Positions 8,181-31,834 of a stretch of DNA of 32,670 bases are shown one piece after another. Every line of letters starts with the position of its first letter. The first letter of the stretch is position 1. This DNA is from a virus. The stretch covers positions 1 to 32,670 of the IMG/VR virus record IMGVR_UViG_3300032282_003876; one strand, written 5' to 3'. The position numbers were made by a program, and so were the translations under genes. The notes beneath the pieces were generated by a model. That model ran no database searches. It was given only the letters and a program-made list of their open reading frames with translations, and had not been told where the DNA came from.

Positions 8181-8618
8181 ATGGAACAACTATTACAACA
8201 AATGAAGGTAGTGCTTGCAAGCACTTTTGCCTTTTATCTCAAGGCTCATAACTTTCATTGGAATGTTGAAGGACCTGATTTTGCACAATATCATGAATTT
8301 CTTGGCAATTTATATGAAGAAGCATTTGGTGCTGTAGATCCTATTGCTGAGCATATTAGAGCACTTAATTCATATGCTCCAGGTAGTTTAACCAGATTTG
8401 CACAACTTTCAGTTATTGATGATCAGATTAATATTCCAAATGCTTTAAAAATGATTAAAGAATTGGAAATGGATAATAATAAATTGAAAGATGAACTTAC
8501 TAAAGCTTATAAACTAGCAGAAACAGCGAATGAAGCTGGTTTATCTAACTTTTTACAAGATCGTATTGATATCCATGCCAAGCACGGTTGGATGTTAAGA
8601 TCTATTGGTAAAGTTTAA
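8181..8618 (+). CDS. dps: Dps-family ferritin (DNA-protecting ferroxidase)
   Basis: Dps proteins form 12-subunit shells that oxidise and store iron, and many bind DNA. This 145-residue protein has the Dps helix with AHNFHWNVEG and all ferroxidase ligands at exact family spacing: His26, His38, Asp53 and Glu57 correspond to E. coli Dps His51, His63, Asp78 and Glu82. Its C-terminal helix ends HAKHGWMLRSIGKV. It lacks a long lysine-rich DNA-binding tail. It lies among late virion-type genes, so it may protect phage DNA or be carried in the particle, although expression in the host to limit oxidative damage is equally possible. Confidence 0.9.
   Translation: MEQLLQQMKVVLASTFAFYLKAHNFHWNVEGPDFAQYHEFLGNLYEEAFGAVDPIAEHIRALNSYAPGSLTRFAQLSVIDDQINIPNALKMIKELEMDNNKLKDELTKAYKLAETANEAGLSNFLQDRIDIHAKHGWMLRSIGKV
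8210..8225. repeat. 16-bp perfect palindrome inside dps
   Basis: AGTGCTTG and CAAGCACT meet without a spacer, ten codons into dps, and are followed by TTTT. It could form a small hairpin with weak attenuation or be an operator-like site. It also codes for protein (VVLAST), so it may be coincidental. Confidence 0.5.
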
Positions 8619-19342: not shown

Positions 19343-19732
19343 GTGAAGAAGCGCCTGTATTGTGCGCTTGTGGTATTTTTGTCTCTACTTTCACCCGAGA
19401 CAAATGCTCATGAGCGTACGACCGACGCTATCAAGATCGTAAAGACTTATGAAGCAAAAGTATCTTGGTACAAACACGGTCTAAAGACAGCTAATGGTGA
19501 AAGGTTTAATCCAAGCCTTTATACTGTAGCCCATAGAACATTACCATTTGGTACATGGGTTAGATTTACAAATCCAGAAACAAATAAAAAAGTTACAGCA
19601 AGAGTAAATGATCGAGGTCCTTTTATTGGTGGCAGACAGTTTGATTTGAGTTGGGGCTCTGCTAAAAAATTAGGTATACTTGAAAAGGGTGTAACTAGAC
19701 TTAAAGTTGAGATTATTAAATATAAAACATGA
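19343..19732 (+). CDS. secreted RlpA-like double-psi beta-barrel protein
   Basis: This 129-residue protein has a GTG start (19343) with GAGGAG at 19329-19334. An N-terminal signal peptide (MKKRLYCALVVFLSLLSPET, cut probably after NAHE or TNA) precedes a RlpA domain: AKVSWYKHGLKTANGERFNP, HRTLPFGTWVRFTN, RVNDRGPFI and FDLSWGSAKKLG. RlpA in bacteria is a lytic transglycosylase that trims glycan strands lacking peptide stems. The essential aspartate-rich barrel strand (RVNDRGPF) is present. It is likely exported to the periplasm and could weaken the wall late in infection or act as an exclusion factor. No SPOR domain follows. Confidence 0.85.
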   Translation: MKKRLYCALVVFLSLLSPETNAHERTTDAIKIVKTYEAKVSWYKHGLKTANGERFNPSLYTVAHRTLPFGTWVRFTNPETNKKVTARVNDRGPFIGGRQFDLSWGSAKKLGILEKGVTRLKVEIIKYKT

Positions 19733-21134: not shown

Positions 21135-21500
21135 ATGTCAACTAGTTGGGGATATCATCTTGCTCTAGATTGTTCTGGTTGTGATCATGGTATGATCACT
21201 GATTCAACAATCATTTACACTTTTGCAAAACAGCTTGTAAAAGATATTGATATGATTGCATATGGCGAACCACAAATTGTTAAATTTGGTTCTGATGATA
21301 AAGCTGGTTTCACCCTTGTGCAGTTAATTGAAACCAGTAACATTTGTGCTCATTTTGTTGATGAAAATGATACCATGTACCTTGATGTATTTTCTTGTAA
21401 GCCATATAATACTGAAGTTGTTATTAAGCTTGTCAAGCAATATTTTGGTGCTAAAGAAATTAATCAAAACTATTTTGAGCGTCAAGCACCTTCTCTTTAA
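21135..21500 (+). CDS. speD: S-adenosylmethionine decarboxylase proenzyme (SpeD)
   Basis: SpeD is a self-cleaving pyruvoyl enzyme that makes decarboxylated SAM for spermidine synthesis; polyamines neutralise packaged DNA. The 121-residue protein has the class I core WGYHLALDCSGC and LIETSNICAHFVDE. Relative to Thermotoga SpeD (Ser63, His68, Cys83), this gene keeps the exact spacing with Ser68, His73 and Cys88 (DVFSCK), so self-processing to a pyruvoyl at Ser68 is likely. The usual ES-H is ETS-N here. It sits directly upstream of the sugar operon with its own AAGGAA ribosome site. Confidence 0.88.
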   Translation: MSTSWGYHLALDCSGCDHGMITDSTIIYTFAKQLVKDIDMIAYGEPQIVKFGSDDKAGFTLVQLIETSNICAHFVDENDTMYLDVFSCKPYNTEVVIKLVKQYFGAKEINQNYFERQAPSL

Positions 21501-21515
21501 AAGAACATATATATT

Positions 21516-21932
21516 ATGAATGAAGTAATTGGGTTTACCTGTGGTGCATTTGACTTATTGCACCCAGGACACATACACTTTCTAAATGAGTGTAGTAAAC
21601 ATTGTGAGGAATTAATTGTAGGTTTACATTCTAATCCACAACTAGATCGAGATTGGAAGAATAAACCTATTCAAAGTATGTATGAACGATATGTTCAACT
21701 TGATGGGCTAAGATTTATAGATCAAATTATTCCATACGATACAGAATATGATCTATTAAATATGATGGGTACATTAACTATCAATAAACGATTTGTCGGA
21801 ACCGAGTATAAAGATCAAGAACTTACGGGTCAACATATTTGTGATCTATTAAATATTGAAATCATATATATTCCAAGATATCATCAATATAGTTCAACAG
21901 AACTAAGAAATAGACTTAAAGGTATTACATAA
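21516..21932 (+). CDS. cytidylyltransferase-like nucleotidyltransferase
   Basis: This 138-residue protein of the TagD/HldE-C family transfers a nucleotide to a sugar phosphate. GFTCGAFDLLHPGHIHFL holds the HxGH motif (His16, His19) and YSSTELRNRL is the closing SSTxLR motif. Its size matches a single-domain enzyme. In the operon of heptose genes, the most likely substrate is a heptose 1-phosphate (as HldE C-domain or HddC make ADP- or GDP-heptose), but glycerol-3-phosphate or another polyol is possible. Its stop overlaps the methyltransferase start. Confidence 0.85.
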   Translation: MNEVIGFTCGAFDLLHPGHIHFLNECSKHCEELIVGLHSNPQLDRDWKNKPIQSMYERYVQLDGLRFIDQIIPYDTEYDLLNMMGTLTINKRFVGTEYKDQELTGQHICDLLNIEIIYIPRYHQYSSTELRNRLKGIT

Positions 21933-22627
21933 TGGGCATTATTAGATTTAGTGACGAAGAAGTATTCAGCACTGATAGTCAAGAATATGATATTCTGCAA
22001 CGTGCAGTACTACAATGCAAAGGTGTTCCAGGTGCTGTAGTTGAAATTGGGACTCGCCGTGGTGGTTCAGCCAAAATTATTATTGATAGCTTAGCTATGA
22101 ATCAAGATACAGATCGTTCAATGTTCTGTATTGATCCATACGGTAATATTGAAATTGAATGCACCAATATGAATATCACTCATCATGTGCCAGGCGTAGC
22201 TACTGAGGGTGATCCAATGTCAAAAGAGATTACCAAACCGCTTAGGTTTGATTATGATAATAGCATGCGAAATCGAATCATTCCTTCACTTTATTATTAT
22301 GCTTATAATAAAGGACTAAATTTTGCATTCTTCTGCATGGAAGATTCAGAGTTCTTTAATCGGTTTGCAGATGGAGTTCCGGTATATAATAATTTCAAGA
22401 AGTATGAAAATACTTATGCGTTTGTATTCTTTGATGGACCACATCATAATGAAGCAGTGGATCTTGAAACAAAATTCTTTCTAGATCGTTCAACTATTGG
22501 TACCGTATTTGTTGCAGATGATATCTGGATGTATGATCATGAGCGATTTGAAACCATGATTTATGCGCAAGGTTTTAAAGTCCTTGAAAAAGGGCAAGTA
22601 AAAGCTTCATATGTAAAGGTTTCATAA
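21932..22627 (+). CDS. class I SAM-dependent methyltransferase
   Basis: This 231-residue protein has the glycine-rich motif I VVEIGTRRGGSAKIIIDS (about 36-53), an acidic motif (FCIDPYG), and VFFDGPHHNEAVDLE, which resembles the TylF/macrocin-O-methyltransferase group. It lies between the nucleotidyltransferase and the GmhA-like isomerase with TAATG couplings on both sides, so it is probably part of the same pathway. O-methylation of the phage-made sugar is the simplest reading; O-methylation of lipid or DNA-linked sugar is possible. Confidence 0.8.
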   Translation: MGIIRFSDEEVFSTDSQEYDILQRAVLQCKGVPGAVVEIGTRRGGSAKIIIDSLAMNQDTDRSMFCIDPYGNIEIECTNMNITHHVPGVATEGDPMSKEITKPLRFDYDNSMRNRIIPSLYYYAYNKGLNFAFFCMEDSEFFNRFADGVPVYNNFKKYENTYAFVFFDGPHHNEAVDLETKFFLDRSTIGTVFVADDIWMYDHERFETMIYAQGFKVLEKGQVKASYVKVS

Positions 22628-23211
22628 TGTCATTTATTGAACATTATCTTAGTGAAGTAACTTTTACAACCAATAGTCTTTCAAGTGAAGATATTGAAAC
22701 AATTGTAAATTATCTAAAACAAGTAAGAGATAATGATGGTCGAGTCTTTGTTTTAGGTGTTGGTGGTTCGGCTGCAAATGCCTCACATATGGTAAATGAT
22801 CTACGAAAACTATGTGATATTGAAGCATATAGTCCAGTTGATAATGTATCAGAACTTACGGCTCGAGTAAATGATGAAGGATGGGAATATTTCTTTGAGC
22901 GTTGGCTCAAAACATCAAAGTTAACTGAATTTGATTGTATCTTTGTATTATCAGTAGGTGGTGGTAGTCAAGAACGAAATATTTCAGTTAATCTGATTAG
23001 AGCAATTGATCTAGCACATGATGTTGGTGCAGCAGTTGTAAGTATTGTTGGTAAACCTGATGGTTATGCAGCATTACATAGTGATGCATGTTGTGTCATT
23101 CCTGTATCAGATCAGACATTATTAACGCCAATTAGCGAAGCATTTCAAGCAATTGTTTGGCATGGTATTGTTTCTCATCCTGAACTTCAGCTAGCAAAGA
23201 CAACGTGGTAA
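22627..23211 (+). CDS. gmhA: phosphoheptose isomerase-like SIS protein
   Basis: GmhA converts sedoheptulose 7-phosphate to D-glycero-D-manno-heptose 7-phosphate. This 194-residue protein carries the SIS domain: VLGVGGSAANASHMVNDLRK (from residue 42), VLSVGGGSQERN near 114-125, the Thr/Glu element TPISEAFQAIVWH (about 172-184), and DNVSELTARVND in the middle, all typical of GmhA. The start overlaps the previous stop by one base and its end overlaps the GmhB gene by seven bases. Context and sequence agree on the heptose pathway. Confidence 0.85.
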   Translation: MSFIEHYLSEVTFTTNSLSSEDIETIVNYLKQVRDNDGRVFVLGVGGSAANASHMVNDLRKLCDIEAYSPVDNVSELTARVNDEGWEYFFERWLKTSKLTEFDCIFVLSVGGGSQERNISVNLIRAIDLAHDVGAAVVSIVGKPDGYAALHSDACCVIPVSDQTLLTPISEAFQAIVWHGIVSHPELQLAKTTW

Positions 23212-23732
23212 AGACAGTATTTCTAGATAGGGATGGAGTTATTAATCATCTTGTCAATCATAATGGCAAGATGACTGCTCCCTGGAAAGTTGAAGAATTT
23301 ATATTCATGTCTGGTGCTGTTCAATGTATTCGTAGATTCAAGAATTTTGGCAAAAGAGTAATAGTAATTACCAATCAACCAGACGTTCTTGATGGTAAAA
23401 TGACTCGTGAAACATTTGACATATTCAAAGATATGTTATATTATCTAAAGGTTGATGATGTATTCTGTGCAGAGCAGCGTGGAACAGAATTCTATAAACC
23501 AAATAATGGTATGCTCGAGCACTATATACAAAAATACGAGTTAAATAGAAATCATTGTGTATTGATTGGTGACACCTGGAAAGATATTGTAGCTGGGTAT
23601 AAAAGTAATATCACAACAATATATAGTTCATATGAGACATATACATCTCCTAAGGAATGGTCTCATATAAAACCGGCTCATACTGTAAAAAATATAACAG
23701 AAGCAACTAAATTAATTGAGGATATATTATGA
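23205..23732 (+). CDS. gmhB: HAD phosphatase, heptose-bisphosphate phosphatase-like
   Basis: GmhB removes the 7-phosphate from heptose 1,7-bisphosphate. The 175-residue protein starts at a GTG that overlaps the previous stop and begins MVKTVFLDRDGVIN, with the HAD nucleophile Asp8 and acid Asp10. ITNQPDVLDG supplies the motif II Thr, FYKPNNGML the motif III Lys, and LIGDTWKDI the motif IV acidic pair. Bacterial GmhB binds zinc through cysteines; here only scattered cysteines are visible and no clear CxH cluster, so zinc may be absent. Confidence 0.83.
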   Translation: MVKTVFLDRDGVINHLVNHNGKMTAPWKVEEFIFMSGAVQCIRRFKNFGKRVIVITNQPDVLDGKMTRETFDIFKDMLYYLKVDDVFCAEQRGTEFYKPNNGMLEHYIQKYELNRNHCVLIGDTWKDIVAGYKSNITTIYSSYETYTSPKEWSHIKPAHTVKNITEATKLIEDIL

Positions 23733-24472
23733 TTGATATCTATGCAGACGGCGCAGCAATGGATGGTATCGTTGAAGCATCAAAAAATAATAAGATCAAA
23801 GGATTTACAACAAATCCATCACTCATGAAAGCAGCAGGCATTAAAGATTATATGGGGTTTTGTGATAATGTTATTGCGTATTTAAAAGAATATCGACCAG
23901 ACACCAATATTAGTCTGGAAGTATTCTCGGATGATGAAACTGAAATGCTTGAACAAGCACTGAAGTTAAATCAAGTCGGACTCAATCATGATTATCCAGT
24001 CTATGTAAAGATTCCTGTTACATATACAAATGGTGAATTTACTATTAATGTTATTCAAAAGTTGCTTGAAAAGAATGTAAGAGTAAATGTTACAGCCGTC
24101 TTTACTCCATATCAAACAATGCATGTACTTGATGCTATTGGAACAAGTAAAGTACCAAGTATTATTTCAATTTTTGCTGGTAGAATTGCCGATGCTGGTA
24201 AAAATGCAGGATTGATTGTTTCAGAATGTGTAAAACTAAATAAGTTTCTTACGTCTGGTCTATCACGAAATCCTAATATTAAGTTTCTTTGGGCATCTAC
24301 ACGACAAGTTTATAACTATGTTGAAGCACAACTAGCAGGTTGTCATGTTATTACAATGACACCAGATGTTATTAAAAAATTATCTAATCTTGATAAAAAT
24401 TTGACCGAGTATTCACTTGAGACAGTCAAGATGTTTAGAGATGATGCCATTAAGTCAGGATATACAATCTAA
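23729..24472 (+). CDS. tal: transaldolase (TalC-type)
   Basis: This 247-residue enzyme moves a dihydroxyacetone unit, and can form sedoheptulose 7-phosphate. It has GFTTNPSLM (25-33), the Schiff-base lysine in YVKIP (Lys94), VTAVFTPYQTM, and SIFAGRIADAG, all of the transaldolase/fructose-6-phosphate aldolase family. Related cyanophage genes are usually linked to host carbon metabolism. Here the gene is set between GmhB and a glycosyltransferase with ATGA/TAATG overlaps, which suggests it supplies the S7P substrate for the heptose enzymes. Confidence 0.9.
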   Translation: MIDIYADGAAMDGIVEASKNNKIKGFTTNPSLMKAAGIKDYMGFCDNVIAYLKEYRPDTNISLEVFSDDETEMLEQALKLNQVGLNHDYPVYVKIPVTYTNGEFTINVIQKLLEKNVRVNVTAVFTPYQTMHVLDAIGTSKVPSIISIFAGRIADAGKNAGLIVSECVKLNKFLTSGLSRNPNIKFLWASTRQVYNYVEAQLAGCHVITMTPDVIKKLSNLDKNLTEYSLETVKMFRDDAIKSGYTI

Positions 24473-25464
24473 TGAGTATGTTTGAAGAAAATGAAGTTTC
24501 AAAGAATGCCTTTGGTGGTACTGAACTAGCAAAGAGAAAACTAGCAGCCATTCTTGATCCAAGTCTACTAAATGACTTTCAGGTAGTTTGTTCCAGACCA
24601 AGAGACTTGGATGAATCAAAGATTAGAATTTTCTTTGCCAACGACCTGGCTACCGATCCAGAGTCTGCCAAGTTTCGTGAAGAATCATTCCGAGATAAAT
24701 TTCATAAGTTTGTCTTTATTTCTAATTGGCAAATGAGCCAATATCAACTAGTACATGGTATTCCATATGATACCAAGAGTATTGTACTAGAATCTGGTAT
24801 TGATATTGCACCCGAGACTGTCAAAAGTAAGGATAAAATTCGTCTGGTCTATACATCAACACCACAACGTGGTCTTGATATTCTTGTTCCAGTCTTTAAA
24901 CATCTAGCAGAAAAATATCCCGATATTCATCTTGATGTATTTTCTAGTTTCAAGATTTATGGTTGGGATGATGCCGATAAGCAATTTGAACCATTATATG
25001 ATGAAATCCGTAATCATCCACAAATGACTTATCACGGCTTTGTGCCTAATGATACACTTCGTTCAACATTAAATGATTGTCATATCTTTGCTTATCCATC
25101 TACATGGGTTGAGACTAGTTGCCGAGCAATGCTAGAAGCAATGACTGCTGGTCTAGTTTGTGTGCATCCAAATCTTGGTGCATTGCCAGATACATCTGGT
25201 TCACTCAATGTAATGTATCAAGGCTCAATGGATAAAAATGAACATGCTAATATCTTTAATGCTCATTTAGAAGCAGCAATTAATTTTGTTAAGAATGATG
25301 CACATGTAAGTATGGTTCAATTTAATAAGACTTATATTGATAGTCGGTTTGGTATTGATAGAATCAAGCGACAATGGGAAACGATGCTCAAGGATCTACT
25401 TAATAGATACCCTACAGAAGAGAGTCGTAGTTTTCCCAAACAACAATTTGTATATCGTACATGA
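24472..25464 (+). CDS. GT4-like glycosyltransferase
   Basis: This 330-residue GT-B-type enzyme has TPQRGLDILVPVFKHLAEKY and FVPNDTLRSTLNDC in its C-terminal nucleotide-sugar domain, and ETSCRAMLEAMTAGLVCVHP, which gives the Glu-x7-Glu motif of GT4 enzymes. The N-terminal Gly-rich acceptor loop (NAFGGTELAKRKL) is present. No membrane segment is seen. It probably transfers the activated sugar made by the neighbouring enzymes; the acceptor (LPS, a protein or DNA) is unknown. The ends overlap both neighbours. Confidence 0.85.
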   Translation: MSMFEENEVSKNAFGGTELAKRKLAAILDPSLLNDFQVVCSRPRDLDESKIRIFFANDLATDPESAKFREESFRDKFHKFVFISNWQMSQYQLVHGIPYDTKSIVLESGIDIAPETVKSKDKIRLVYTSTPQRGLDILVPVFKHLAEKYPDIHLDVFSSFKIYGWDDADKQFEPLYDEIRNHPQMTYHGFVPNDTLRSTLNDCHIFAYPSTWVETSCRAMLEAMTAGLVCVHPNLGALPDTSGSLNVMYQGSMDKNEHANIFNAHLEAAINFVKNDAHVSMVQFNKTYIDSRFGIDRIKRQWETMLKDLLNRYPTEESRSFPKQQFVYRT

Positions 25465-26444
25465 TTATTTCTAAAACCCCATTAAGAATTAGTTTCTTTT
25501 CTGGTGGCAGTGACTTACCGGCTTTCTATAGGAGAGCCGAGGGTGCTGCCCTTTCAGTTACTATTGACAAATACATATATGTTATGGCTCATAGTAAATC
25601 ACGAGGTAACTATGTAACTGCATTTGATGGTATTAATGATTATGATACATTGGACTCAATGACCCATGATATTACTCGTGAAACATTAAAAGAATATAGA
25701 ATCAAGAATAAAGTCCATGTAGCATCTATTTCAGATATCCCAGGTAAAGGCTCTGGTCTTGGTAGTTCTTCATCGTTTACAGTTGGTTTAATTAATGCTT
25801 TAAAAGAATGTTATGAACCAGTTTCATTGGCAGAACAAGCTTGTAATATTGAAATGAATCGTTGTGAATATCCAGTTGGTAAACAAGATCAATATGCTGC
25901 AGCAGTTGGTGGTCTAAATTTATTCAAGTTTTCAAGTGATCGTGTTGCATCATCACTCTTAAATATCTCTAAAGAGACTATCGCTAAACTACATGATAAT
26001 TTACTATTAGTTTATACAGGTATTTCACGATCTGCCAATAAAATTCTATCAGAACAATCTAAGTCTATGACTGATGATGATAAATTCAATCTTGTCATGA
26101 ATGGTCGTAATAAGGCTATCTTTGCCGCAGACTTACTAGAGCGTGGTGATCTAGATACATTTGGTGATTTGTTACATCAAGCATGGTTAGATAAAAAGAA
26201 TGTGGCATCTGGCATTACTAGTGAAGCAATTGATCACATTTATGATGTAGCTATGTTAAATGGTGCTCTTGGTGGTAAGATTTTAGGTGCTGGTGGTGGC
26301 GGTTTTATGATCTTCTACTGTGAATCTAATAAGAAAGAAGAATTATCTTCTATTCTAGGTAAAAAAACTAGAGCTGTTACATATGATTTTAACTTTACAA
26401 GAGAAGGATCAAAAGTTGTATATGCAGATGAGATCCTATCATAA
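25461..26444 (+). CDS. hddA: GHMP kinase, heptose 7-phosphate kinase-like (HddA)
   Basis: This 327-residue GHMP kinase begins MIISKTPLRISFFSGGSDLP, the typical start of HddA-type sugar kinases. IPGKGSGLGSSSSFTVGLIN (94-113) is the ATP loop, YPVGKQDQYAAAVGG gives the Asp and substrate loop, and KILGAGGGGFMIFY is motif 3. HddA adds the 1-phosphate to D-glycero-D-manno-heptose 7-phosphate. With GmhA, GmhB, transaldolase and a nucleotidyltransferase encoded just upstream, the family call is well supported. The stop precedes a strong promoter. Confidence 0.88.
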   Translation: MIISKTPLRISFFSGGSDLPAFYRRAEGAALSVTIDKYIYVMAHSKSRGNYVTAFDGINDYDTLDSMTHDITRETLKEYRIKNKVHVASISDIPGKGSGLGSSSSFTVGLINALKECYEPVSLAEQACNIEMNRCEYPVGKQDQYAAAVGGLNLFKFSSDRVASSLLNISKETIAKLHDNLLLVYTGISRSANKILSEQSKSMTDDDKFNLVMNGRNKAIFAADLLERGDLDTFGDLLHQAWLDKKNVASGITSEAIDHIYDVAMLNGALGGKILGAGGGGFMIFYCESNKKEELSSILGKKTRAVTYDFNFTREGSKVVYADEILS

Positions 26445-26481: not shown

Positions 26482-26865
26482 ATGACTAATGCTAATAATG
26501 TTATTATCTTTCCAACCAAACACACCAAGTATAATGGACCAACTTCTTTTGAAGAAATTGATGAAACTATGGATATGGTCAAACAATTTCATATTCAAGA
26601 GACAATTGAGACCATTATACCTACATTGTTCGATCAGTTGACTGTGGCTGGTTTTGCACCAGACGAAGATGATGATGAAGTGATGAAGCATTCTGCAATG
26701 GTTGTTGAGTCTATTAGATCATTACTTTGTTTGATTAGAGGTATTGACCATCCACTACAAATGATTGCTGATAACTTATTTGTACATACTGATGATGGTC
26801 TGGAAGTATCAGACAAAGTAAAAATCATTATTACACCCAAAGATAATAAATCAGACAAGGAGTAA
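26482..26865 (+). CDS. conserved phage protein upstream of RNase H
   Basis: This 127-residue acidic protein begins MTNANNVIIFPTKHTKYNGP. The VIIFP-type beta start and a following helical region (ETIETIIPTLFDQL, VVESIRSLLC) resemble a small protein I recall in many T4-like marine phages. DDLEVSDKVKII-like ends are typical. It has no enzymatic motif. The leader is only four bases after the -10 box, so the mRNA may be nearly leaderless. Its stop overlaps the ribosome site of RNase H. Confidence 0.7.
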   Translation: MTNANNVIIFPTKHTKYNGPTSFEEIDETMDMVKQFHIQETIETIIPTLFDQLTVAGFAPDEDDDEVMKHSAMVVESIRSLLCLIRGIDHPLQMIADNLFVHTDDGLEVSDKVKIIITPKDNKSDKE

Positions 26866-30053: not shown

Positions 30054-30842
30054 ATGTTAAATAATAAATATAGAAGCATTTTTATCAGTGATATACACCT
30101 TGGTAGTAGAGCATGTCAGGCAGATTTATTAACACAATTTTTAAAAGTAAATACTTGTCAAAATTTATATTTGGTAGGTGATATATTTGATTTATGGAAA
30201 CTTAAAGATAGTAGATATTGGCCACAATCCCATAGTAATGTAATAAGAAGATTTCTTACTTCATCTAAAAGAGGTACAAAAATATACTATATCTTAGGCA
30301 ATCATGATGAATATTTTAGGACCTGGATATCAGATATGAATATATTTGGAAATATAATTGTGGCAAATAGTTTTGATCATTACACAGTTAATAACCAAAG
30401 ATTCCTTGTTACACATGGGGACATGTTTGATGGTATTGTTCGACATCATAAATGGTTAAGTCATTTGGGTGATAAAGCACATACATTTGTGTTATGGTTA
30501 AACACCGGTTTAAATAATTTACGCCGAATACTTGGTAAAGATTATTGGAGTTTTAGTAGTTTTTTAAAAACAAATACTAAACAAGCAATGGCGTTTATAA
30601 TAAATTATGAATATAATTTAATAAAATATGCTCGAGATGAAGCATATCATGGTGTAATATGTGGTCATATACATACTCCAACAATAAAGATTGATGAAGA
30701 TGGATTTGTATATTTTAATACAGGTGATTGGTGTGAGACTATTAGCGCTTTAGTTGAAAATCATGATGGTACATGGGAATTATTAGTATGGGATACTAAT
30801 ATTAATGATATGAAGGTAACATCAACATGGGGCATCAAATGA
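30054..30842 (+). CDS. plcP: metallophosphoesterase, PlcP/LpxH-like phospholipase candidate
   Basis: This 262-residue enzyme has a complete calcineurin-type metal site: SDIHLG (Asp13, His15), LVGDIFD (Asp43), LGNHDE (Asn83, His84), VTHGDMFD (His121) and ICGHIHTP (His205, His207). The strands YWPQSH and KYARDEAYHGVICGH match the PlcP subset of the LpxH superfamily, which in marine alphaproteobacteria removes phosphate headgroups from phospholipids, better than E. coli LpxH, from memory. The next gene, a GT4 glycosyltransferase, completes the PlcP-Agt arrangement. UDP-diacylglucosamine hydrolysis (true LpxH) is the alternative. There is no membrane segment, which fits a peripheral enzyme. Confidence 0.85.
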   Translation: MLNNKYRSIFISDIHLGSRACQADLLTQFLKVNTCQNLYLVGDIFDLWKLKDSRYWPQSHSNVIRRFLTSSKRGTKIYYILGNHDEYFRTWISDMNIFGNIIVANSFDHYTVNNQRFLVTHGDMFDGIVRHHKWLSHLGDKAHTFVLWLNTGLNNLRRILGKDYWSFSSFLKTNTKQAMAFIINYEYNLIKYARDEAYHGVICGHIHTPTIKIDEDGFVYFNTGDWCETISALVENHDGTWELLVWDTNINDMKVTSTWGIK

Positions 30843-31834
30843 GATTGATTATAATAGATGATAATATGCCAAATCAGGTAAATGGTGTAGTAACAACTTT
30901 CAATTATCTTAAAAATGAATTATTTTCACGTGACAATATAAATGTAAATCACATTACACCTTATCAATTTTATAATATACCTGCTATGGTTTATCCTGGA
31001 GCAAGACTACCTATTAATTTATGGAAACTTGAAAATTATATAAAATCATATAATCCAACACACTTACATATTTGCACAGAAGGTTTGCTTGGACTAACTG
31101 CCAGATCCATATTCAGGAAACATGGATGGAATTATACAACGAGTTCTCACACTCGTTGGGATGAATACTTGGCAAAAACACTAAAAATAAAGCCAAATAT
31201 TGGTATGAAATATATGAAATGGTTTCATAAATATAGCTATTCAGTATTGGTAAATACAAAATCTATTGCAACTGAATTAGAATTAAAAGGGTGGAAAAAT
31301 TTAAAAATATGGACCCGTGGTACTGATAAAGATCTTTTTTCCTTCAATGATCATACACTAACTGATAAACCTACACTTCTAACAGTTGGTAGAATCAGTA
31401 AGGAAAAAAATATAGATGCTTTTTGCAACTTATCAAAAACAAACCAATATAAGTTAATATGTGTAGGTGATGGACCAGAATTAAATCGACTGAGAAAACA
31501 ATATCCTGATGTTATTTTTTTAGGTGAATTAAAAGGAAAAGAACTAGCGGAACAGTATAAAATGGCTGATTGTTTTGTCTTTACTAGTATTACCGATACA
31601 TTTGGTATGGTTATGATTGAAAGTATGTCAACAGGTACACCAATAGCAGCTTATCCAGTTCAAGCACCTAAGGATATTATAGAGCAGGGTATTACCGGAT
31701 TTTTACATAATGATCTTAATATTGCTATTGATAATTGTTTATCTATACCAAGAAAAACAGTACATGATGGTAGTAAAAAATGGTGTTGGAAAAAAACCAC
31801 AGATATATTTTTAAATTCATTAATAGAAAAATAA
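30839..31834 (+). CDS. agt: GT4 glycosyltransferase, Agt/SqdX-like glycolipid synthase candidate
   Basis: This 331-residue GT-B enzyme starts at the ATG overlapping the plcP stop (ATGA). An in-frame ATG at 30827 lies upstream. NQVNGVVTTFNYL, HICTEGLLGLTARSIFRKHG and TSSHTRWDEY are typical of GT4 enzymes that act on diacylglycerol (Agt, SqdX). The nucleotide-sugar half has LLTVGRISKEKNIDAF, VGDGPELNRL and the Glu-x7-Glu type block DTFGMVMIESMSTGTPIAAY. With PlcP this would make glucosyl- or glucuronosyl-diacylglycerol. A role in LPS or teichoic-type glycosylation is the alternative. Confidence 0.85.
   Translation: MRLIIIDDNMPNQVNGVVTTFNYLKNELFSRDNINVNHITPYQFYNIPAMVYPGARLPINLWKLENYIKSYNPTHLHICTEGLLGLTARSIFRKHGWNYTTSSHTRWDEYLAKTLKIKPNIGMKYMKWFHKYSYSVLVNTKSIATELELKGWKNLKIWTRGTDKDLFSFNDHTLTDKPTLLTVGRISKEKNIDAFCNLSKTNQYKLICVGDGPELNRLRKQYPDVIFLGELKGKELAEQYKMADCFVFTSITDTFGMVMIESMSTGTPIAAYPVQAPKDIIEQGITGFLHNDLNIAIDNCLSIPRKTVHDGSKKWCWKKTTDIFLNSLIEK

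Follow-up and report, generated by a model that had tools for sequence, protein, structure and literature searches.

Does a phage encode a complete route to an activated heptose and, if so, on which acceptor is the sugar placed? This question is raised by seven genes that span positions 21516-26444 (+ strand) of an IMG/VR virus record (IMGVR_UViG_3300032282_003876), analysed over its whole length of 32,670 bases and here called the window, which derives from a T4-like phage with genes for a gp41-like helicase, primase, ThyX, NrdA and NrdB, glutaredoxin, RNase H and PhoH. We consider it probable, from the comparisons described below, that these genes form a self-contained phage pathway that makes and uses nucleotide-activated heptose. 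The cassette is composed of the following open reading frames (ORFs):

21516..21932, + strand: nucleotidyltransferase of the RfaE-II/TagD type (PF01467, TIGR02199, HxGH and SSTxLR motifs)
21932..22627, + strand: methyltransferase (Methyltransf_24; Pfam), accessory, non-core by locus counts
22627..23211, + strand: GmhA-like SIS isomerase with non-canonical catalytic residues (SIS_2, fold)
23205..23732, + strand: GmhB-like HAD-IIIA phosphatase, GTG start (Pfam, NCBIfam, solved relatives, HAD motifs)
23729..24472, + strand: transaldolase (TAL_FSA, TIGR02134, catalytic Lys/Glu/Phe)
24472..25464, + strand: GT4 retaining GT-B glycosyltransferase (Pfam, PHROGs, EX7E motif, predicted structure)
25461..26444, + strand: HddA-like GHMP sugar kinase, heptose 7-phosphate kinase type (NF049969; solved relatives WcbL and HddA)

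From the nucleotidyltransferase to the kinase, the successive junctions overlap by 1, 1, 7, 4, 1 and 4 nucleotides; the ORF calls and the family matches thus agree with the original prediction of seven overlapping genes, every internal junction overlapping by 1-7 nucleotides. Upstream, the S-adenosylmethionine decarboxylase gene speD (21135-21500), kept just in front of the cassette in most relatives, stops 15 nucleotides before the nucleotidyltransferase, and the next ORF, at 26482, begins 37 nucleotides downstream of the HddA-like gene.

Families were assigned with Pfam, NCBIfam and PHROGs, Pfam matches being counted over the gathering score and NCBIfam matches being read against the curated equivalog cut-offs. 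Each of the seven ORFs has a Pfam match over the gathering score (PF01467 CTP_transf_like, 51.5 bits; Methyltransf_24, 31.1 bits; SIS_2, 32.2 bits; Hydrolase_like, 40.5 bits; TAL_FSA, 138.8 bits; Glycos_transf_1, 45.4 bits; GHMP_kinases N/C, 43.5/41 bits, in gene order). The NCBIfam matches are to heptose enzymes for the nucleotidyltransferase (heptose-1-phosphate adenylyltransferase ranking first), isomerase, phosphatase and kinase, and to TIGR02134 for the transaldolase, and the solved relatives of the phosphatase, kinase and isomerase are also heptose enzymes, those nearest the kinase being HddA and WcbL, a studied heptokinase. Most catalytic motifs are retained: the HxGH and SSTxLR motifs of the nucleotidyltransferase are kept across phage relatives, the HAD motifs of the phosphatase (DxD, Lys, GDxxxD) are present in the window and conserved in relatives, the kinase has the GHMP motifs, and the Schiff-base Lys, Glu and Phe of the transaldolase align with those of solved transaldolases and are conserved in phages. 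In the fold search with the predicted isomerase structure (predicted local distance difference test, pLDDT, 88.7), phosphoheptose isomerases stand at the top of the list, with template modelling (TM) scores of 0.74-0.76. Isomerase, C1 kinase, C7 phosphatase and nucleotidyltransferase, the enzyme classes that mark a nucleoside diphosphate (NDP)-heptose pathway at the gene level, are therefore all co-encoded.

These assignments suggest the following route. The transaldolase would be the source of sedoheptulose 7-phosphate, formed from fructose 6-phosphate and erythrose 4-phosphate, and the GmhA-like isomerase would convert it to an aldoheptose 7-phosphate. The HddA-like kinase would phosphorylate C1 and the GmhB-like phosphatase would strip the phosphate from C7, after which the nucleotidyltransferase may activate the heptose 1-phosphate and the GT4 enzyme may move the heptose onto an acceptor; methyltransferases, or an SDR and Gfo/Idh pair, would tailor the sugar in particular lineages. 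We favour this pathway because the families, solved relatives, isomerase fold, transaldolase active site, synteny, purifying selection and a bacterial operon all point to it, and because GT4 is paired a second time with an HddA-type kinase and a GmhA-type isomerase, in Caulobacter phage Cr30 and in contig G012. In the original prediction the genes could lead from sedoheptulose 7-phosphate to an activated heptose and its transfer. That prediction is partly supported: gene content, co-conservation and the bacterial match speak for such a gene set, the genes, their order and conservation, the folds of two proteins, most catalytic motifs and the bacterial operon being established and every reaction being deduced from them.

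The bacterial counterpart came from a scan in which the isomerase alignment was run against bacterial and archaeal genomes; it gave at least 574 relatives, the best 80 of which (50-56% identity) were read. Near the isomerase, these 80 loci hold a transaldolase (65), GmhB (61), HddA (55), Gfo/Idh (50) and SDR (30), and 64 hold HddC, an NTP_transferase protein, whose gene immediately precedes that of the isomerase in 51; one example, L141, reads SDR, Gfo/Idh, HddA, HddC, GmhA, GmhB, transaldolase. Such operons share with the phage cassette the isomerase subfamily, kinase, phosphatase and transaldolase, but use HddC and lack the phage nucleotidyltransferase and GT4. Conversely, HddC had no match in the phage loci, six of which retain SDR and Gfo/Idh. 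In quick trees the phage HddA and the phage transaldolase each form one clade apart from bacteria, and the isomerase requires two changes. This distribution may be explained by a bacterial sugar cassette that was acquired long ago and in which a phage-type nucleotidyltransferase took the place of HddC. The bacterial operon HddA-HddC-GmhA-GmhB-transaldolase (L134-L213) is itself widespread, its isomerase lacks the canonical GmhA residues, and no paper joining hddA, hddC and transaldolase was found in the literature searched.

Transaldolases are common in cyanophages, and the gene could be a stray one, of the carbon-flux kind represented by cyanophage TalC, with only the other genes making a sugar. 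The window transaldolase is only ~30% identical to TalC, however; in 35 of 47 phage loci it lies between GmhB and GT4, and in bacteria it is a usual neighbour of the isomerase. We rejected the stray-gene explanation, which we regard as very improbable, on account of this fixed position in phage and bacterial operons; since bacterial isomerase operons usually include a transaldolase with HddA, HddC and GmhB, we take the transaldolase as a member of the pathway.

Conservation was assessed in viral contigs searched with the kinase (57 loci) and the isomerase (80 loci), and gene order was counted in the 47 viral loci that remained after deduplication and extended far enough on either side; the frequencies are conditional on a locus having an isomerase or a kinase, since loci were gathered by similarity to one of the two. 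The order nucleotidyltransferase-GmhA-GmhB-transaldolase-GT4-HddA is found in 35 of the 47, within a syntenic region in which speD and glutaredoxin precede the cassette and RNase H and PhoH follow it; seven loci are shorter or rearranged. Between the window and its relative L006, the proteins are 78-94% identical, with non-synonymous divergence (dN) of 0.03-0.13 and synonymous divergence (dS) saturated or >2, and the cassette is under strong purifying selection. It is not a chance assembly, because the six-gene order recurs and dN is low against a saturated dS. The splitting of the operon in close relatives, named beforehand as an outcome that would speak against the pathway, was not found by synteny, and related phages do keep the six core genes together. 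The same does not hold for the methyltransferase, which the original prediction had counted as part of the pathway: it is present in the window cassette, but among the 47 loci it lies inside the cassette in five, is displaced upstream in 13 and is absent from 29, being internal only in the lineages of the window and of L066.

The T4-like phage family with this cassette is known mostly from metagenomes, and its gene set has long been conserved. A DNA-level search of isolated phages gave matches in cyanophages alone, confined to the RNase H region, so the collection searched holds no close isolate, and the isomerase had almost no match among isolated phages. Reduced cassettes also exist: L066 and L067 have nucleotidyltransferase, methyltransferase, GmhA and GT4, without kinase, phosphatase and transaldolase, and L050 and L056 have nucleotidyltransferase, GT4 and HddA, without isomerase. 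They constitute natural tests of which steps matter.

Enzymes of the RfaE-II type use the beta anomer. HddA-type kinases were described as being specific for the alpha anomer (PMC4691232). The combination of an RfaE-II/TagD-type nucleotidyltransferase with an HddA-type kinase is a hybrid that was not seen in the bacterial operons read; pairing an alpha-type kinase with a beta-type nucleotidyltransferase is unusual, and the anomer of the product is therefore not predictable. The nucleotidyltransferase had been called a cytidylyltransferase, which proved to be a superfamily name only, given the first rank of the adenylyltransferase family in NCBIfam. It also lacks the (F/L)XXGRSTT motif, having RYHQYSSTELR at that place; this motif marks nucleotidyltransferases of the STTR5 type, which are promiscuous for the nucleoside triphosphate (NTP) (PMC11573728).

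Several observations weigh against the heptose pathway. None of the nucleotidyltransferase, isomerase, phosphatase, transaldolase and kinase reaches its NCBIfam equivalog cut-off (TIGR02199, 66.5 bits vs 181.5; TIGR02134, 243.5 bits vs 281.95; NF049969, 166.7 bits vs 600, for the nucleotidyltransferase, transaldolase and kinase, respectively). The residues Asn51 and Asp58 of the isomerase, invariant within the phage family, align with the canonical catalytic Asp and Glu of GmhA; the predicted GmhA-like isomerase thus holds for the fold and not for the catalytic residues, and because of this replacement "GmhA" is an assignment by fold and context. The alpha-specific kinase type and the beta-type nucleotidyltransferase do not obviously fit each other, and the nucleotidyltransferase family (phrog_7878) occurs in 132 isolated-phage records, nearly all without an HddA-type kinase. 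Five of the 47 loci have the cassette order minus the nucleotidyltransferase, and some relatives lack kinase, phosphatase and transaldolase. Owing to the scores below cut-off and the replaced isomerase residues, the heptose, its anomer and the nucleotide are putative. The same residues and scores, together with the hybrid kinase and nucleotidyltransferase types, would also fit enzymes acting on another phosphosugar, heptose-like with another configuration or chain length and not D-glycero-D-manno-heptose. We judge this rather unlikely, considering that the transaldolase active site is retained, that the nearest relative of the kinase is the proven heptokinase WcbL and that the nearest fold to the isomerase is that of GmhA.

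Viruses were already reported to hold heptose enzymes, with role unknown (PMC11573728), and single heptose or rfaE genes, not a six-gene cassette, appear in pelagimyophage, Lake Baikal and cave virome papers. With the GDP-D-glycero-alpha-D-manno-heptose route (GmhA, HddA, GmhB, HddC; Burkholderia capsule, WcbL; PMC4691232), the cassette shares the isomerase, kinase and phosphatase classes, but it has an RfaE-II/TagD-type nucleotidyltransferase instead of HddC, a dedicated transaldolase, a GT4 enzyme and altered isomerase residues. The RfaE-II-type nucleotidyltransferase is common to the ADP-heptose route (GmhA, HldE, GmhB) and to the viral heptose nucleotidyltransferases (PMC11573728), whereas the phage kinase is of the HddA type, not an HldE kinase domain, and (F/L)XXGRSTT is missing. 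Among T4-like phages, Caulobacter phage Cr30 and cyanophage SynMITS9220M01 (PMC7378029) also have an HddA-type kinase and a GmhA-type isomerase; in Cr30 the same GT4 adjoins the heptose genes and a relative of the nucleotidyltransferase is encoded elsewhere in the genome, but the isomerase is of another subfamily and GmhB-like and transaldolase genes do not adjoin. In the DNA-arabinosylating, T4-like Mosigvirus RB69 and NP (PMC13390438), isomerase, kinase, NTP transferase and glycosyltransferase are likewise predicted together; the enzymes of the cassette differ in being of heptose type, and DNA is only a candidate acceptor for it.

The predicted structure of the GT4 enzyme (pLDDT 92) has a GT-B fold, and its EX7E motif is invariant. 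A sequence search of solved structures gave no match; in the fold search, the model aligns with GT4 structures over 265-300 residues (Z 23-27, root-mean-square deviation 2.4-4.3), and no DNA transferase is among the matches listed, which excludes nothing. The mean isoelectric point of 6.0 was judged uninformative on DNA binding. Other T4-like phages carry the same family: in Caulobacter Cr30, Sinorhizobium phiM12 and Rhizobium RHph_I1_18, among others, it is flanked by glutaredoxin and RNase H, and in Stenotrophomonas DLP6 it adjoins glutaredoxin. Most isolates have no heptose genes next to it; in Cr30 and G012, an HddA-type kinase and a GmhA-type isomerase unlike that of the cassette come after GT4. 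The transferase is the constant part, around which the sugar-making genes vary.

We tentatively place a host cell-surface glycan first among the single acceptors, phage DNA second and a virion protein or another acceptor third. The infected cell's lipopolysaccharide, capsule or O-antigen would then receive the heptose, or a tailored form of it, and rival phages would be excluded. The nearest gene set belongs to bacteria, in an operon of the polysaccharide-sugar type, the GT4 structures nearest the model act on polysaccharides, lipids, proteins and small molecules, tailoring genes differ among phages, and GT4 is found in phages without base-modifying enzymes. Nevertheless, the window showed no flippase, polymerase or O-antigen module, and the cassette sits amid nucleotide-metabolism and replication genes, both of which speak against this acceptor. 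The window also encodes, at 30054-31834, an LpxH-like metallophosphoesterase and, after it, a second group-1 glycosyltransferase, which may act on lipids or on envelope glycans.

It is also possible, if doubtful, that GT4 adds heptose to 5-hydroxymethylcytosine, or to a base modified further, and shields the phage genome, as with the glucose of T4 and the arabinose of RB69-type phages; phage-encoded sugar pathways serving DNA are of a known kind (PMC13390438, PMC12838424). In cassette relatives, base-hydroxylating enzymes occur at one syntenic place. The 167-kb relative G001 encodes a thymidylate-synthase-like protein (96,615-97,292) that is ~60% identical to T4-type deoxycytidine monophosphate (dCMP) hydroxymethylases and adjoins DUF1599 and dCMP deaminase genes; the equivalent place of G002 is taken by a Tet_JBP dioxygenase (65 bits), and Tet_JBP/TET is also found in G003, in the G010 lineage and in G035. 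In related phages this place, bounded by gp46/47-like genes and the clamp loader, is occupied by one of several interchangeable DNA-modification blocks:

G001, L214:80-2599: T4-type dCMP hydroxymethylase block
G002, L229:12879-15600: TET alone
G003, L348:5272-7364: TET with TAGT
G035, L358:6004-11412: TET with ADDT and a P-loop kinase
G006, L356:5583-6533: TAGT alone

The hydroxymethylase contigs G011-G014, although without the isomerase of the cassette, and the TET phages Cr30 and DLP6 also carry GT4. However, G008 spans the place without any such enzyme, and phiM12, RHph_I1_18 and OC have GT4 without TET, with an ordinary thymidylate synthase or none and with no hydroxymethylase-like match. 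Moreover, modification blocks such as those of G011-G014 hold candidate transferases or sugar genes of their own, common ancestry confounds the link, and the window stops short of that region; the contigs G004, G005 and G009 stop short of the clamp loader, and the absence of modification genes there was discarded as evidence. The hydroxymethylase and TET genes of relatives speak for heptosylated DNA, and the phages that have GT4 without them speak against it. Its specific form, heptosyl-hydroxymethylcytosine from a pathway starting at the phage transaldolase, seems unlikely; this base was not described in the literature searched, and an earlier description of heptosylated phage DNA may exist outside that literature. 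A virion protein or other acceptor is somewhat improbable. As a separate observation, G014 (L289:10004-14483) encodes a dCMP hydroxymethylase, an epimerase, a UDP-galactopyranose mutase and an unassigned 369-aa protein in one block, which suggests galactofuranose on phage DNA.

Elsewhere in the window, a ferritin-like (Dps-type) protein is encoded at 8181-8618 and an RlpA-like DPBB protein at 19343-19732.

Phages are known for one or a few sugar genes, whereas here an old lineage probably encodes a whole route, from central carbon to transfer, with a pairing of kinase and nucleotidyltransferase absent from the bacterial operons that resemble it. Phage transaldolase would thereby gain a specific job besides the control of carbon flux. 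The pathway predicts an activated heptose, and the use of heptose by phages becomes testable, in part with Cr30, a Caulobacter phage that can be cultivated.

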